A stretch of 21,177 bases of DNA, from positions 1-21,177 of IMG/VR virus record IMGVR_UViG_3300036770_000601, one strand, 5' to 3'. The position numbers were made by a program, and so were the translations under genes. This stretch comes from a virus. The notes beneath the pieces are model-generated. The model was not told where the DNA came from. It ran no database searches and saw only the letters and a list, made by a program, of their open reading frames with translations. Positions 12,736 through 21,177 of this stretch are shown piece after piece; position 1 is the stretch's first letter, and each line of letters starts with the position of its first letter.

Positions 12736-15700
12736 ATGCCATTACCAAGTAATGCTAATATCAGTAGCAGTAATTTTACGACATTATATAGTGGTAGTCC
12801 TACTGATGTTGTTGCTACAGGTACAAGTCCAAATATAGTTGGCAATTTAAGTAGTAGCAATTTTACTACATTGTATAGTCGTGGGGCAACTGAAGTTGAT
12901 CCAGACATCACTGTAGGTGAGCGTGGTATACAGGGTATACAAGGCATACAAGGTGTACAAGGATTAGATGGTTCTTTCGCAGCACAAGGTATACAAGGTC
13001 CGCAAGGAGTACAAGGTGTACAAGGAACTTTTGGTAATCAAGGTTTACAAGGCTTACAAGGCTTACAAGGCGTACAAGGAATTATAGGTCTTACCGGTGC
13101 TGGTGGTACAATTGGTAATTGGGGTAGTTTTTGGTCTACTGATGATCAATATGCTAATAGTAATACATCAAGTTATCTTGTAAGTTTTAATAATACAGAT
13201 CCAGATAGTTTTGGTGTTAGTGTAGTTAGTAATAGCCAAGTTACATTTACTGAGTCTGGAACTTATAGTATTACATATAGTGCCCAATTTAAAAATGCTG
13301 TAAACAATGTTATACATACAGCAGAAGTTTGGCTTAAAAAGAATGGTAGTGATGTAGCAGATACAAATAGCATTTTTGATGTACCAGGTACACATAGTGG
13401 TGTAGATGGTCGTACAGTTGGAACAGTTAATTATGTATTAGAATTACTCGCTAATGATTATATTGAATTAGCATGGCATACTGATAATGCTAATGTTACA
13501 TTAGAAACTATTCCTGCTGGTGTAAGCCCAACAAGACCACAAACTCCTAGTGTTATATTAACAGCAACACAAGTAACTTATACATTACAAGGTCTACAAG
13601 GTATTCAGGGACTACAAGGATTTCAAGGTATACAAGGAACTACATTAGCAATTGGTGGCGCTAATACTGAAGTACAATATAATGATAATAATGTATTAAA
13701 TGGCGATAGTAGTTTTACATTTAATAATACAAACGATACAATTACAATGAGTAATGTTGCTAACATTGGCAATGTCAATGTTGGTTATGTATCAGGTAGT
13801 AATTTACGAACAAGTTTATTTGGTGATACACCAGGTAATTTTAACACAGCAAATACAAATTATCAAAACAATGTAGCAATACTATTAAATGATAGTAGAG
13901 ATCAAACAGCATCAATAAGACAAGTTGTTGCTAGAAGTCGTGGTGGTAATGTTGATAGTCCTACAACTGTAGTTGCTGGTGATACTGTAAGTTCAGTTGT
14001 ATACTCAGCATATACTGGTAATACATATGTTCAAGCAGGTCGTTTTAATGTAACTATAGATGGCACAGCAAATATAGCAAATTACAGTGCTAGTGATGCG
14101 AATTTTGTTCCTGCTAATATAGCATTTACTGTTGGTTCAGCAAATAGTGATGTATTAGGTAATATTGCTAATGGCGTAGGAGCCAATCAAACATTATCTT
14201 TATTCAGTAGTGGTCTAGTATTTTTGAATACAAATGACACAAGCACTACCGGTGCTAGTGGAACTCAACCAGGATTTGCTCATGTCAACCATAGCGATTA
14301 TGCTAATCGTGATGCATACTGGTATATTGAAAGACGCAGAGGACAAGTAGGAAACAGTCAACCTGTACAAGCAGGAGATGAATTAGGAAGCATCAATTTT
14401 AATGCGTATAATGGAAGTAATGCTAGAGCAGGAAGTCAAATACAATCTACTATTAGAAGTAATGCTACCATAACTAGTGGTCAAACTGTATTAACAGATT
14501 TATATGTAAAAACATTAGGAAATGTGTATTTAGGCACACAATATGCTAATTTTGCACAAAGCAATACAAATGTAGTTATTGGTATAAGTGATGGTAATAC
14601 AGGTAACATATTAGCCAATGTATATTATGGAACTAATGCTAACATTAGTAATACATTAACAGTTAATACTGTGCAACTTACCAACAATAGGGCAATTTTT
14701 GGCAACAACGCAGGCAATACAGCAAATGTAAGTAACAATTATCAAGTAGCAATAGGCACATTAGCAGGTAGTGATAATCCAGCAGATGGCGCAATTGCTA
14801 TTGGTCAAAACGCAGGAATAAAAGACGCATTATTTCAGAGTATAGCAATTGGTGTTAGTGCAGGTGGTAATGGATTAGGCAATCATAGTATTGCTATAGG
14901 TAGTTTAAGTGGCATAAATCCTTCAGGTAATGGTACAATTGCTATTGGTAATTACGTAGCAGCAACAGGTGGGCAAAATATTGGTGCTATTGCTATTGGT
15001 AATTACTCAGCAAGTAATAATCAAGGTAATTATGCTATCAGCATAGGTAGTCAGAGTGGTAATAATCAAGGTGCTAATAGTATAGCAATTGGCAGACTTG
15101 CTGGTGCTAATGCTCAAGGCTTAGTTAGCATAGCGATTGGTAATAGTGCTGGTAATACAACTCAAGCAAATGGAAGTATTGCTATTGGTAATAGTGCTGG
15201 ATTAACAAATCAAGGTAATGGTAATGTACTTGGAAGCGGTATTGCTATTGGTAATCGTGCTGGACAGACAAATCAAGGCTTTCGTAGTGTAGCAATTGGC
15301 GCAAGTGCTGGTATTACAAGTCAGGGCAATATTAGTGTAGCAATTGGTTATCTTGCTGGACAAACAAATCAAAGTGATAGTGCATTAGCAATTGGAAGTA
15401 GTGCTGGTTCTAGTAATCAAGGCACAGAAAGCACAGCAATAGGAAGTGTTGCTGGACAAAATAATCAAGGCATACAAAGTTTAGCAATTGGTAGTAGTGC
15501 TGGTGCTAATGTTCAAGGTAATAATAGTGTTGCTATTGGTTATGCTGCTGGTACGGAAACTCAAGGTAGTAATAGTGTAGCAATTGGATCACTAGCAGGA
15601 ACTACAAATCAAGCAAACAATAGTATTGTTATCAATGCAACTGGAGCAAATTTAGAAAATACTACTGCTAATAGTTTTGTTATTAAGCCAGTTAGAAACG

Positions 15701-16377
15701 CAAATACAGCAAATGTTTTATTTTATAATAATACATCAGGTGAAGTTACATATGATATTGTTTCAGGTTTACAAGGTATACAAGGAATTCAAGGAATTCA
15801 AGGCATTCAAGGTCTTAGTGGATCTAATGGTACTCAAGGTACACAAGGACTTCAAGGCACTCAAGGACTTCAAGGCACTCAAGGACTTCAAGGTATAACA
15901 GGAAGTCAAGGTACACAAGGCACACAAGGTATACAAGGATTACAGGGTATCACAGGAAATCAAGGATTACAAGGTACACAAGGTATACAAGGACTACAAG
16001 GTATAACAGGTAGTCAAGGTACACAAGGACTTCAAGGAATAACAGGAAGTCAAGGTACACAAGGTTTACAAGGTATACAAGGATTACAGGGTATTACAGG
16101 AAGTCAAGGTACACAAGGTATACAAGGATTACAGGGTATTACAGGAAGTCAAGGTACACAAGGACTACAAGGATTACAGGGCATAATTGGTAGTCAAGGC
16201 ACGCAAGGACTTCAAGGTATACTTGGTCTTCAAGGTATTCAAGGTATACAAAGTGTTCAAGGCGTACAAGGATTACAGGGTCCAAGCATACAAGGACTAC
16301 AAGGACTTCAGGGACCATCAGGCGGTGGAGGCGGTGGTGGTGAAACATTTAATGTATTTTTATTAGCAGGAATGTAA
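12736..16377 (+). CDS. Collagen/C1q/YadA-like trimeric tail fibre
   Basis: This 1213-residue mosaic fibre has ATG 12736 behind AAGGATACA. Order of parts: (a) an N-terminal region with a duplicated [10 protein letters not shown] (residues 10-19 and 39-48), probably for virion attachment; (b) a first collagen-like run (about 62-120; [13 protein letters not shown]); (c) a C1q/TNF-like beta domain (about 127-283; [28 protein letters not shown]); (d) a short collagen run (about 285-302); (e) a beta-rich shaft; (f) about 20 YadA-head-like repeats of about 16 residues with AIGxxAGxxxQG (about 645-965); (g) a long Gly-X-Gln collagen run (about 1011-1200); (h) seven Gly and the tail [11 protein letters not shown]. 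All of these fold as trimers. No Pro-rich stabilisation or C-terminal chaperone domain is seen. It is the likely host-recognition fibre. Confidence 0.85.
14684..15621 (+). repeat. YadA-head-like 16-residue repeats within the fibre gene
   Basis: The coding DNA repeats every 48 nt near the end of this tract, with the core GCAATTGG(T/C/A) or GCTATTGGT for AIG and GGT/GCT for AG. Consecutive protein units from about residue 850 include [48 protein letters not shown] and [16 protein letters not shown]. Earlier units vary in length (13-20 residues). Bounds are approximate. Confidence 0.8.
15766..16320 (+). repeat. Collagen-coding tandem repeat (9-, 18- and 45-nt periods)
   Basis: The tract encodes near-uninterrupted Gly-X-Gln triplets (X is mostly Leu, Ile, Thr or Ser). 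At DNA level GGACTTCAAGGCACTCAA repeats as an 18-mer near 15847-15890. A 45-nt unit repeats with 38 identical leading bases at 16081 and 16126 (GGATTACAGGGTATTACAGG start). Such direct repeats can change copy number by slippage or recombination and are also hard to assemble, so the true length may differ. Confidence 0.85.
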
Positions 16378-16378
16378 A

Positions 16379-16708
16379 ATGGCAACAACATATAAAGTAT
16401 TAGGACAAAGTGCTCCAGCAGCAGCAACACCAAGTGATTTATACACAGTACCAGCATTAACTAGTGCTGTGTGTAGTACATTGGTAGCAGCAAATCGTGG
16501 AGCAGCAAGTGGAACAATAAGAATAAGTGTAAGACCTGCGGGAGCAACTCAGGCAAATCAACATTACATTGCCTATGATGTCCCTGTAGCAGCAAACAAT
16601 AGTTTATTTTTAACATTAGGTATTAGTTTAGCAACAACTGATGTTGTTACAGTTTATGCTAGTAGTGCCAATTTTAGTTTTAATCTATTTGGATCAGAAT
16701 TAACATGA
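16379..16708 (+). CDS. Small fibre-associated or decoration protein
   Basis: This 109-residue, beta-rich protein starts MATTYKVLGQSAPAAATPSD and ends NFSFNLFGSELT, with IRISVRPAGATQANQHYIAY in the middle. The pattern (LYTVPALTSAVCSTL..ANRG..GTIRISV) is one I associate with small phage proteins encoded next to collagen-like fibres. Their exact role is unknown; a fibre-tip, decoration or trimerisation partner is plausible. ATG 16379 follows the fibre stop by one base, with the ribosome binding site AGCAGGAA inside the fibre gene's 3' end. Its stop overlaps the next start (ATGA at 16705-16708), so fibre, this protein and the adhesin are co-translated. Confidence 0.75.
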   Translation: MATTYKVLGQSAPAAATPSDLYTVPALTSAVCSTLVAANRGAASGTIRISVRPAGATQANQHYIAYDVPVAANNSLFLTLGISLATTDVVTVYASSANFSFNLFGSELT

Positions 16709-19170
16709 CAGTAAGCGTATTAGAATTTAATGGATTTGATACAACTAGAGATAGAGTTGTTCCTAGTCCACAGCCACCAGTTATAACAAATATTGGTAGT
16801 GATTGGGTCAGACCAAGTGAATGGCCTGCTGAAACAAGTATTAGTGTAAGTGATCAAAAAGCAGCATTATTAGTTGCTGTATATGATGACAATAACAATT
16901 GGTATAGATTTACAGCAACTTGTAGTAGTGGTAACTATGTTGTTGATTGGGGTGATGGCGTAACTGATACAATTGCCAGTGGTGGCACAGCAAGTCATAC
17001 TTATGATTATGCTACATTAAGTGGTAGTGTTACTAGTTATGGTTATAAAACAGCAACCATTATTGTTACTCCACAAACAGCAAACTTAACTCAATTAAAT
17101 TTAAATATTAATGCTGCTGGAGTAACCCCTATCGAAACAGTTTATCGTAGATATTTAGAAGTATTAATCGGTAGTCCAAATTTGACCCTTTTAGTGTTAC
17201 AACGAAGTACAACTAATCAACAGAATGCATTTTTACCATTAATTCAACATGTAAAAATTGTTAGTATGAGTAATAGTTATACTAACTTTAGTAATTTGTT
17301 TTATGGAATGGAAAACTTACAAAGTATAGAGTTACCTGATCTGAGTAATGTTACATCCATGAGTGCTACATTTGGAGCACTTCCATTTATAACTAAATTC
17401 CCAGATTTAACTGCTACATCATGTACAACAATGGCCAACCTTTTTATTGATAATTTTAATATGAAAAGTGTTGGTAATTTAGATTTTAACACAGGAAGTA
17501 ATTGTAATGTATTTGGACTGTTTGCCAATTGTAGAAATTTAGAAATTATAGGCAATGTCTCTGGTAGGTTAGTGACTACTGGTAATATGTTTGTTAATTG
17601 TCACCAATTAAAAAGCGTAGGGTATGTACAAGCAGAATACATGACAACTATGCCTAATTTCATTAATTGCTACAGTTTAGAAACATTACCCTATTGGAAC
17701 ACAGTAAACATTGCCAACATGAATAGCAGTTTTCAATTTTGTACAAGTTTAAACAGTATACCAAGTTGGGATTTTAGTAATGTTACTAATATGGGCAACA
17801 CATTTAATGCGTGTCAAAGTTTAGTTGAAATTGATTTAAATTTACCTAAAGTTACAAATTTAACTACTACATTTAGTAATTGCCAAAGTTTAAAATATGT
17901 TACATTAAACACGACTGGAAATTTATTAACAACTAATGAGTTATTTGCTGGCGATTTAGCATTAGAAAAAGTTAATATTAGTAATGTTAGTAATGTTACA
18001 AATGCTAGTTTTATGTATAGTTTTACAGTAAGTCTAAATGAAATTAATGACCAAAGTTATGCGAACTGTACAAATACTCGTGGTATGTTTAGTAATAGTG
18101 CTATTAATTATTTACCAAATCAAAACTTTGCCATGTCAGCAAATATTGATTATATGTTTGCTAATACACGAGGTAATTTGAGTTTAGGTAATTTTGTTAC
18201 TGACGCTAGTACTAGTGTTTTTACATTTGCTAATAGTTCACTTAAAAATATTAAATGGACTCCAAGAGCAAATGTAACAACTATGGCTATTAATGGTACA
18301 TGTGCAAATAGTTTTTATTTAAAAGAATTTGAAATAGTGAGTGGTAATTTAACTACATTTAGCAACGCAAGTTTATTGTTTAATGGATGCACAAGTTTAG
18401 AAAAGGTTATATTTCCAACTACAATTAATCTTAATACAACAGCCAGTATCATGTATCGCAATAATCCTTATTTACGAGAAATACCAGCGATAAATGTTAA
18501 TGCTGCTTTTACAGCAGATACTAATATGAATAGTTTAGCAGTTGCTAATTTACAAAACATAGAAGCAAATGTTGTTATAAATGTTGGTGGATTAACTAAG
18601 TCAGCAATAGAAACTGTATTTGGTAATTTAGTAGCAGGCAACAGCACATTACGAAATATTAATATTAATAATAATCCAGGTGATGATACTGTAGTTACCA
18701 AATCAAGTAATACCACAAGTGGTAGCAATGTTGTTGTTATAGCAAATACTGTTGGATTGTCTACTGGTATGTTGGTAACTGGAAACAATATTAGTAATGG
18801 TCGCAGTGTAACTTTCCAAGATACTGGCGATACAGTAACATTGACAAGTCATGGTATAAGCAATAACAACATAGTTAGTTTTAGTACAATCACAAGTACA
18901 ACTGGTATCAGTGTTTATACACCCTATTATGTTGTTAACTCAGCAACAGACACTTTCCAAGTAGCAAGTACACAAGGTGGATCAGCATTACCTTTAACTA
19001 CAGATGGAAGTGGTACACTACTTTATGGTACTTTTGTTGATACTATTAATGCTAATGCTAATGTTATTGTAAGTATTCCAGCAAGTGGTACTGCTACTGG
19101 ACAAACACTTACATTTAGTGTATTGGATACAAGCATAGCAACATTAAAGAATTGGAGTGTCACACGATGA
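16705..19170 (+). CDS. BspA-like leucine-rich-repeat adhesin, probable receptor-binding protein
   Basis: This 821-residue protein has three visible regions. The N-terminal 160 residues include a PKD-like module (VVDWGDGVTDTIASGGTASH then TYDY). The centre (about 185-600) is a leucine-rich solenoid of the BspA/DUF285 kind with the unit C.SL..IP...FSNVTNM..TF..C, for example CTSLNSIPSWDFSNVTNMGN then TFNACQSLVEI, and regularly placed Cys and Asn ladders. The C-terminal 170 residues carry beta modules common in phage proteins: VVIANTVGLSTGMLVTGNNI and YTPYYVVNSATDTFQVAST then GSALPLTTDGSGTL. BspA-type repeats mediate surface binding in bacteria and protists. After the fibre genes the natural reading is a host-binding tip or side protein. 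No signal peptide is present, as expected for a virion protein. Confidence 0.85.
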   Translation: MTVSVLEFNGFDTTRDRVVPSPQPPVITNIGSDWVRPSEWPAETSISVSDQKAALLVAVYDDNNNWYRFTATCSSGNYVVDWGDGVTDTIASGGTASHTYDYATLSGSVTSYGYKTATIIVTPQTANLTQLNLNINAAGVTPIETVYRRYLEVLIGSPNLTLLVLQRSTTNQQNAFLPLIQHVKIVSMSNSYTNFSNLFYGMENLQSIELPDLSNVTSMSATFGALPFITKFPDLTATSCTTMANLFIDNFNMKSVGNLDFNTGSNCNVFGLFANCRNLEIIGNVSGRLVTTGNMFVNCHQLKSVGYVQAEYMTTMPNFINCYSLETLPYWNTVNIANMNSSFQFCTSLNSIPSWDFSNVTNMGNTFNACQSLVEIDLNLPKVTNLTTTFSNCQSLKYVTLNTTGNLLTTNELFAGDLALEKVNISNVSNVTNASFMYSFTVSLNEINDQSYANCTNTRGMFSNSAINYLPNQNFAMSANIDYMFANTRGNLSLGNFVTDASTSVFTFANSSLKNIKWTPRANVTTMAINGTCANSFYLKEFEIVSGNLTTFSNASLLFNGCTSLEKVIFPTTINLNTTASIMYRNNPYLREIPAINVNAAFTADTNMNSLAVANLQNIEANVVINVGGLTKSAIETVFGNLVAGNSTLRNININNNPGDDTVVTKSSNTTSGSNVVVIANTVGLSTGMLVTGNNISNGRSVTFQDTGDTVTLTSHGISNNNIVSFSTITSTTGISVYTPYYVVNSATDTFQVASTQGGSALPLTTDGSGTLLYGTFVDTINANANVIVSIPASGTATGQTLTFSVLDTSIATLKNWSVTR

Positions 19171-19984: not shown

Positions 19985-20038
19985 CTCCGTACTGTTAATG
20001 TAAAGTCATTATAACACAGTTGCCATTTATTGTCAAAT
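19985..20038 (-). repeat. Promoter/leader cassette, copy 1
   Basis: This 54-nt segment aligns without gaps to 20227-20280 with about 8 mismatches by eye. It includes the -35, spacer ends, -10, the leader TGACTTTACA.TAACA and the ribosome binding site ACGGAG. Most differences are in the middle of the spacer. Confidence 0.85.
20008..20036 (-). promoter_or_regulatory. Consensus sigma70 promoter (leftward, copy 1)
   Basis: On the minus strand TTGACA (20036-20031), a 17-nt spacer and TATAAT (20013-20008) are exact matches to both consensus boxes at ideal spacing. The -35 overlaps the stop codon of the gene at 20033-20221. Host RNA polymerase should use it strongly, as for phage early genes. Confidence 0.9.
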
Positions 20039-20226: not shown

Positions 20227-20280
20227 CTCCGTTTTGTTAGTGTAAAGTCATTATAGCACAGTCATGATTTATTGTCAAAT
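20227..20280 (-). repeat. Promoter/leader cassette, copy 2
   Basis: This is the second copy of the 54-nt cassette at 19985-20038 (offset 242 nt). The ribosome binding site, -10 region, -35 region and most of the leader are conserved, while the central spacer has diverged (CATG against TGCC on the + strand). Confidence 0.85.
20250..20278 (-). promoter_or_regulatory. Consensus sigma70 promoter (leftward, copy 2)
   Basis: On the minus strand TTGACA (20278-20273), a 17-nt spacer and TATAAT (20255-20250) give a perfect consensus. Its -35 is half of the palindrome TGTCAAATTGACA (20273-20285), whose other half is the -35 of a rightward promoter. Confidence 0.9.
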
Positions 20281-20435: not shown

Positions 20436-20464
20436 TTGACAAATAATTCAATTTGTAGTATAAA
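20436..20464 (+). promoter_or_regulatory. Strong rightward sigma70 promoter
   Basis: TTGACA (20436-20441), an exact 17-nt spacer and TATAAA (20459-20464) match consensus in 11 of 12 positions. TATAAATAA also matches the T4-type late core. Expected transcription start is about 20470-20472, exactly where the first hairpin of the structured segment begins. Confidence 0.85.
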
Positions 20465-20470
20465 TAACTA

Positions 20471-20640
20471 TGTGTGCGATTGGTCTCGTCACACAGGTCT
20501 ATTATCAACATTTCTTTGATAAAAAACTTTTGACATAATTAGGAGCGAAACCCACATGCTGGTCATGTGGGGCTCTCATCGTAGACCAAGACGATGTTTA
20601 TGTATAGACCAATGAGAGCGAAATGTCAAACAATTTTTTT
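20471..20640 (+). ncRNA. Candidate structured RNA or leader with complementary loops
   Basis: Perfect or near-perfect helices in order: H1 TGTGTG+CGA with TCG+CACACA (20471-20479 with 20486-20495, one bulged T, loop TTGGTC); H2 TTATCAA/TTGATAA (20502-20508 with 20516-20522); an outer P1 TTTGACAT/ATGTCAAA (20529-20536 with 20623-20630) enclosing P2 CCCACATG/CATGTGGG (20551-20558 with 20564-20571) and P3 GCTCTCAT/ATGAGAGC (20572-20579 with 20612-20619); then T7 at 20634-20640. The P3 loop has two GACCAA copies (20584, 20607), complementary to the H1 loop TTGGTC and, over five bases, to TGGTC (20560-20564) at the P2 loop. A strong promoter starts it and a T run ends it. It could be a free RNA or a 5' leader/attenuator of the helicase gene. 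No known Rfam family is recognised. Confidence 0.6.
20556..20615 (+). CDS. Possible 19-residue mini-ORF inside the structured segment
   Basis: ATG 20556 follows AGGAG (20541-20545) by 10 nt and encodes MLVMWGSHRRPRRCLCIDQ with a TGA stop at 20613-20615. The peptide is basic with two Cys. It overlaps P2 and P3 exactly, so the pairing could be incidental to coding, or the ORF incidental to RNA structure. I favour RNA because the helices are perfect. This is a low-confidence alternative reading. Confidence 0.2.
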   Translation: MLVMWGSHRRPRRCLCIDQ

Positions 20641-20659
20641 ATTAAAGTGAGAAACAAAA

Positions 20660-21177
20660 ATGTTTATTATAGATCAGCGCAAATGTGGCGCAGGTAAAAC
20701 TACAAATGGCATATACAAGCGTATTGCCAATAACATAAAAAATAATATTAAAACATTAGTTGTTGTTCCAAGTATTAAATTACAAGAACAATATGTTGTT
20801 AATATAGATTATCCTATTACAATAATCAACAGCGAATTATATAATAAGAATAGTGTTGACTTTGTAACCACGATACAAGCAACATTACATCATATGAAAT
20901 TGGGTAGTAAAATAATTATTATTACCCATCAAGCGTTTGTTAAACTACCCACTACAACATATAGTAATAATTATGATTTAATTATTGATGAAGCATTAGA
21001 TGATATTATTCGTAAGACTAGTGTTACCATAGATAAAACAGATGTTTGGAACCCAGACTTAGATTTACATAACTTGTTTGAGTTTGTTGATAATACTGTT
21101 GAACAAATTGTTAATTTAGATGTTAATAATGATACAGATTGGTATCAATTGTATCAATATAGACAACCAACACAATC
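20660..21177 (+). CDS. P-loop NTPase / SF2-type helicase, N-terminal part
   Basis: The frame is open from ATG 20660 to the window edge (172 residues, incomplete). It begins MFIIDQRKCGAGKTTNGIYK: Walker A is KCGAGKTT at residues 8-15, unusually close to the N-terminus. TLVVVPSIKLQEQYV (about 33-47) fits helicase motif Ia, and YDLIIDEALD (about 105-114) is a Walker B with a DEAL box of the DEAD/DEAH type. IIIITHQAFVKL between them is like the region before motif II in SF2 proteins. It is likely an early DNA or RNA helicase for replication or recombination. AAAGTGAG (20644-20651) is a modest ribosome binding site. The structured segment and T run end 20 nt upstream, so its expression may depend on readthrough. 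Confidence 0.85.
   Translation, partial: MFIIDQRKCGAGKTTNGIYKRIANNIKNNIKTLVVVPSIKLQEQYVVNIDYPITIINSELYNKNSVDFVTTIQATLHHMKLGSKIIIITHQAFVKLPTTTYSNNYDLIIDEALDDIIRKTSVTIDKTDVWNPDLDLHNLFEFVDNTVEQIVNLDVNNDTDWYQLYQYRQPTQ

Follow-up and report, generated by a model that had tools for sequence, protein, structure and literature searches.

The initiation sites of the T4 genes e, soc, 49 and I-TevI are sequestered; in the case of gene e the long early transcripts carry the block, and unblocked mRNA is made from a late promoter (PMC3014915). The leader pseudoknot of T4 gene 32 is bound by the gene's own product and was, in 2010, perhaps the sole viral pseudoknot described for translational autoregulation (PMC3014915). 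In T4-type gene 32 leaders a small pseudoknot is the binding site from which the protein spreads over the unstructured initiation region (PMC3014915, PMC535899). Two further kinds of RNA are relevant here. Purine riboswitches consist of the joined helices P1, P2 and P3 with contacts between loops L2 and L3 (PMC5480868), and GOLLD and ROOL, large RNAs encoded by phages, have kissing loops, assemble into cages and are often located close to tRNA islands (PMC12286853).

We analyzed a virus record of 21,177 bases over its whole length (referred to as the window). Its genes include those for an SU10-type portal and major capsid protein and for the large subunit of the terminase, and it contains no tRNA gene. 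At its right end the structural genes are followed by two small leftward ORFs, a rightward promoter, a leader RNA of about 190 nt and a helicase-like gene (20660–21175, + strand). The product of this gene is DEAD/ResIII-like, with a score below the Pfam cut-off, and the gene is cut by the contig end. We consider it somewhat probable (roughly 60%) that the RNA acts in cis as a 5' leader to regulate how the helicase-like gene is translated, the transcript probably being an early one.

Further features of the window were noticed in passing. Two sigma-70 promoters, matching at 12 of 12 positions and having an extended -10 element (TG), accompany the short leftward ORFs at the right end (20008–20036 and 20250–20278, - strand). 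A predicted protein of 1213 residues (12736–16377), probably a tail or fibre protein, combines collagen-like repeats of the form QG(I/L/T)QG with AIG(N/S) motifs that also recur. A protein of 821 residues (16705–19170) contains DUF285 repeats; in record G026 a DUF285-like gene region, as judged by eye, likewise stops just before an early leader.

Promoter and fold of the leader

A sigma-70-type promoter (20436–20464, + strand) was read from the sequence, with TTGACA at 20436–20441, a 17-nt spacer and TATAAA at 20459–20464. It matches 11 of 12 positions and lacks the conserved last T, which is why it is missing from the list of the promoter scan. The near-consensus promoter of the original prediction, as well as a structured RNA beginning at the predicted transcription start, is borne out. 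Neither the promoter scan nor a census of leaders revealed a second promoter inside the leader of the window, of the type that would relieve a block as in T4 genes e and soc. In the two related records described below, L008 and L002, promoters occupy the matching place before the helicase gene. Within their leaders, at the start of P2, we also read promoter-like sequences (TTGACA-18-TAGAAT in L008, TTTACA-17-TAGAAT in L002); RNA starting from these sites would be devoid of the strand complementary to the Shine-Dalgarno (SD) sequence.

The folded structure of the leader is real. The segment 20471–20640 has a minimum free energy of -47.2 kcal/mol (z = -3.46), which was equaled by none of 200 dinucleotide shuffles. 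Perfect inverted repeats of 8 nt occur four times in it (P1, P2, P3 and a complement between a loop and a strand described below), with 0.29 expected (P = 0.004, 2000 mononucleotide shuffles). The helices H1, P1, P2 and P3, all on the + strand, mostly have pair probabilities above 0.9. Hairpin H1 (20471–20495) carries the loop L1 (TTGGTC, 20480–20485) on a stem whose six basal pairs reach probabilities of 0.81–1.0. P1 is formed by residues 20529–20536 and 20623–20630. The P2 hairpin (20551–20571) comprises a stem of 20551–20558 with 20564–20571 (0.98–1.0) and the loop L2 (CTGGT, 20559–20563), and the P3 arm (20572–20619) has a stem of 20572–20579 with 20612–20619 (0.82–0.98). All sequences and coordinates quoted in the original prediction were found in place on checking. 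The proposed switch between GGAGC (20542–20546) and GCTCT (20572–20576) exists on paper as a pairing, but P3 dominates at the probabilities given above and no sign of conservation was seen.

The P3 arm contains two copies of the motif AGACCAA, element 1 (20583–20589) and element 2 (20606–20612), each complementary to both L1 and L2. The longest match is an 8-nt complement between L1 and element 2, ATTGGTCT (20479–20486) with AGACCAAT (20606–20613), and the corresponding duplex was calculated at -10.7 kcal/mol. These complementarities of the H1 and P2 loops to the repeated GACCA(A) elements agree with the earlier description. Complementarity of 6-mers between loops and unpaired strands reaches the 1.3% level against shuffles, which alone is merely suggestive. 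It recurs with other letters in relatives: L1 is complementary to its element in the window (UUGGUC:GACCAA), in L008 the H1 loop UCGUCAC faces a downstream GUGACGA, and in L002 loops L2 and L3 are complementary (GUGGUA:UACCAC) with letters unrelated to those of the window. Kissing contacts of the leader loops, as had been proposed together with pseudoknots, are plausible candidates from the sequences.

Predicted pairing of the start codon and the competing hairpin H2

The leader strand 20496–20526 is an imperfect antisense of residues 20635–20675, which extend from a run of seven T residues through the AUG to codon 6. In the predicted fold this strand closes off the initiation region, while H1, P1, P2 and P3 form at high probability and a further hairpin, H2, competes with this block. 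The blocking helix consists of 20496–20513 and 20658–20675, the latter containing the AUG (20660–20662) and the first codons; it has 16 pairs and two mismatches. It is continued by P0, a helix of 13 bp between 20514–20526 and 20635–20647 with probabilities of 0.82–0.99 for residues 20515–20526. A weak SD-like GTGAG (20647–20651) lies in the internal loop beside P0. Together, the blocking helix, P0 and P1 join the leader to the initiation region by 37 pairs. The initiation region is thus predicted to be paired with sequence further 5' in its own transcript, as in T4 genes e and soc.

With 45 or 90 nt of coding sequence in the fold, the probability of the AUG being unpaired is 0.00–0.03. Opening the region from -16 to +3 of the helicase gene costs 11.9 kcal/mol as compared to 5.4 ± 1.3 kcal/mol for shuffled leaders (n = 300, initiation region kept), none of which reached 11.9 kcal/mol. 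This value lies within the top 2.4% of 166 control ORFs from related phages.

The T run (20634–20640) had been taken for the end of the RNA. The fold, however, runs on into the helicase start codon, and most of the run is part of the 3' strand of P0, where it pairs with A20521–A20526. Since the run forms the 3' side of a helix, is unlisted by the terminator scan and is absent in L008 and L002, its role as an RNA end is not supported.

The hairpin H2 (20502–20522, TTATCAA/TTGATAA) is the alternative to the blocking helix and P0. In a series of folds of increasing length it is complete for transcripts ending at 20633–20640 and is gone from 20645 on. The second hairpin of the original prediction therefore exists in folds ending near 20633–20640, but is only about 1% populated in the full leader, where forcing it weakens the fold by 9.8 kcal/mol (-59.3 versus -69.1 kcal/mol). 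This cost is close to the -10.7 kcal/mol of the duplex between L1 and element 2, a value that includes no loop penalty. H2 and the start-codon block are mutually exclusive because both use one strand. In addition, the long stacked helix would keep H1 far from P3, so that, from helix geometry, the L1 contact and the block may exclude each other as well.

Leaders of related helicase genes

A search with the helicase of the window yielded L002 and its near-copies L003 and L004, and a DNA pattern of the nucleotide-binding motif added L008 to the helicase relatives. The comparison of leaders thus comprises three distinct sequences: the window, L008 and L002. Both relatives have a promoter and a structured leader directly before the homologous helicase gene. 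Folding z-scores of the leaders up to the AUG are -3.8 (window), -4.9 (L008) and -6.6 (L002), and a census covering the promoter-led leaders of about 20 related contigs ranks all three among its most structured members.

The sequences suggest that the related viruses retain a similar leader layout with largely different letters. L008 and the window have in common the promoter region and the patches CTCGTCACA, ATTTCTTT and TTTTGACAT; their helices are otherwise different. The motif TTTTGAC (20528–20534 in the window) also occurs in L008 and L002, just 5' of P1. In the H1 stem, TAGATG/CATCTA of L008 corresponds to TGTGTG/CACACA of the window, and three of six aligned pairs are changed on both sides. 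The P2 sequence of L008 and L002 differs from that of the window; these two have the lower P2 stem GAATCCC/GGGATTC in common, with paired changes above it. The L002 leader contains H1, P2, P3 and a P1 of 10 bp with the SD sequence AGGA in its 3' strand, and in L008 the strand ATTTCTTTC pairs with the SD region GGAAAGAAAT. In both, virtually the whole SD core is predicted to be paired (AGGA in L002, the GGAAAG part in L008). MAFFT alignments of the leaders did not bring the helices into register, and no T run is found at the corresponding place in L008 or L002.

Several observations argue against a switch. The blocked element differs, being the AUG in the window and the SD sequence in L008 and L002, and the register of P1 is shifted between the window and L008. 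Opening energies of L002 and L008 are only moderately high, being reached by 8 and 21 of 300 shuffles, respectively, and are ordinary in that 27–29% of control ORFs reach them. In the window itself, the AUG appears open (P about 0.88) in folds without coding sequence, and an AU-rich long-range helix may form too slowly in vivo.

Helicase genes that are more distantly related are mostly internal to operons and have no leader. L099 and L103 are among the more distant helicases that do have one, but these two leaders show neither unusual folding energy nor unusual occlusion, and were dropped as candidates for the same class. In L099 (- strand, ~614–493) we noticed that a hairpin loop of the helicase leader, AACTCCTTA, is complementary to three copies of AAGGAGT, the last of which is the SD sequence of the gene; this exceeds shuffled sequences. 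Relatives of the terminase are abundant (338), and no helicase copy was detected in 49 of 50 terminase-relative records searched, many of which are fragments. As terminase relatives in the records searched are mostly without the helicase, the leader belongs with a small helicase-linked module and not with the phage group.

Database searches were in line with an undescribed RNA, as the original prediction had it. Rfam gave no credible match to the leader at gathering or lax thresholds; what the lax search returned, a microRNA and two snoRNA families, matched by chance. No match to the leaders of the window and L008 was found by blastn against phage records. With tblastn against the same kind of records, the helicase fragment of the window had no match and its longer relatives had remote matches only. 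Low-complexity patterns dominated the results of a helicase search by alignment, the exact leader pattern was absent from viral contigs, and a scan of bacterial genomes gave a single spurious match. A general search for a kissing architecture, P1[P2 x P3], ending near a start codon showed no overall excess (31 real versus 28 shuffled). At scores of 30 or more it gave five real hits versus none in shuffled sequences, and two of these five (L002 and G026) are promoter-led leaders with the SD sequence in P1.

Other structured leaders came to light in the same records. The most structured one in the census (z = -9.6) is a 242-nt leader before an ORF of 85 residues at L102:12483 (- strand), with a 5' hairpin of 22 bp and then a long stem, in the 3' strand of which the likely ribosome-binding site is enclosed. 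A 146-nt leader of a Prim-Pol replication operon (L116:7801–7947, G026:27801–27947; z = -5.2) has its SD sequence paired in the closing stem and a 7-bp loop-loop complement between P2 and P3 (TTGTCAG:CTGACAA); its opening energy is not unusual, and a search for relatives returned G026 alone. At L105:1587 (+) and L109:1573 (-) the SD sequence is paired, in long-range helices of 11–16 bp, with a strand that precedes an internal hairpin resembling a terminator. In L109 this strand also lies upstream of a second promoter, and the arrangement of both is reminiscent of T4 gene e control.

Proposed mechanism, alternatives and known systems

The fold and the competition between helices were computed; from these we infer the timing, the effector and the direction of control as follows. 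On the full-length transcript the default state would be OFF for translation. During transcription H2 would form first, and the start codon would be free as long as H2 persists, perhaps by virtue of L1 and L2 kissing to the AGACCAA elements or of a protein bound to the domain. Once H2 or these contacts are lost, the long helix would zip up and translation would cease. The outcome could either be a timed pulse of helicase or a protein-controlled, possibly autogenous, switch. An ambitious extension, which we regard as doubtful, is that the leader represents a new class of bistable phage translational switches. In such a class, kissing of loops to duplicated elements of a P1-P2-P3 domain would compete with a start-codon-blocking helix, a ligand, a protein or the phage helicase would set early expression, and relatives would keep the design with most letters replaced.

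The original prediction had named three candidates, of which a riboswitch or attenuator for the helicase gene is the best supported; no evidence was found for a decoy of a host factor. The start-codon block and the layout kept in relatives make a translation switch probable rather than a free-standing small RNA. Such an RNA, acting as a regulator, sponge or decoy and ending at the T run, would account for a structure that begins at the predicted transcription start and for the position of the run after P1. It is unlikely, however, because the helix before the run is AU-rich, closes a domain of about 86 nt and lies 3 nt off, and the terminator scan lists nothing at 20634–20640, where a GC-rich short hairpin is lacking. 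Moreover, L008 and L002 have no T run here, and in the window the run pairs with the leader in a fold that enters the gene with extreme statistics. The lack of a recognizable intrinsic terminator and of an equivalent in the relatives also makes us skeptical of a transcriptional attenuator, in which P1 and the T run would serve as a long-range terminator or pause while H2 exists and P0 or a ligand would decide on read-through. This reading would fit the completion of H2 exactly when RNA polymerase is at the T run, and leader and gene are on one transcript.

We are equally reserved about a role in mRNA protection or processing, e.g. as an RNase III substrate with its ~37 interrupted pairs, or in put-like antitermination, with the AUG block as a by-product. 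The long and imperfect pairing of the initiation region with a leader that sits right at the transcript start could serve these purposes, but the relatives place the SD sequence and not the AUG in the helix, as translation control predicts, and Rfam contains no known antiterminator RNA similar in sequence. That the structure arose by chance in AT-rich intergenic DNA and has no function is very unlikely. While the relatives are few, the power to detect covariation is low and loop complementarity alone reaches merely the 1–3% level, strong folding is seen independently in three diverged leaders, none of the 300 shuffles reproduced the blocking in the window, and the structures lie between a promoter and one gene family. 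The least credible alternative is a translated leader peptide (20556–20615, MLVMWGSHRRPRRCLCIDQ) that steers folding by attenuation. Its ATG is preceded by an SD-like AGGAG, and its frame crosses P2 and P3, both of which a translating ribosome would disrupt; yet nothing similar exists in any frame of L008, L002, L099 or L103. Homologues conserving a peptide had been named beforehand as speaking against a structured RNA, and no conserved peptide was found in the relatives.

Returning to translational control as the preferred reading, the nearest known kinds appear to be the start-site blocks of T4 genes e and soc and the pseudoknot operator of T4 gene 32, by analogy and not by any shown membership. 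As in T4 e, soc, 49 and I-TevI, an upstream strand of a phage mRNA is predicted to cover the SD sequence and/or the AUG, which in the T4 cases lowers 30S binding. Unlike in gene e, the main promoter here makes the blocked RNA with no second promoter in the leader of the window, and the block bridges a P1-P2-P3 domain whose loops are complementary. The likeness to T4-type gene 32 lies in the leader of a replication-type gene with candidate pseudoknot-like contacts located 5' of an initiation region rich in A+U; here, in contrast, the initiation region itself is paired in the predicted fold.

The arrangement of P1, P2 and P3 with possible L2-L3 contacts, and with P1 joined to the expression platform, resembles a purine-type riboswitch most clearly in L002. 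It differs in having no Rfam match, in its unequal helix lengths and in the loop contact of the window, which comes mainly from H1 outside P1. With GOLLD and ROOL the leader would share its nature as a phage-encoded structured RNA with (here predicted) kissing loops, whereas those RNAs are far larger than its ~190 nt and it has neither an Rfam match nor a tRNA gene in the window. The leader offers a putative switch that is compact and open to testing, its arms and its compensatory mutations both being defined. As a second design, from phages known from metagenomes only, it would show one way in which such phages use translation to time a replication-type gene.
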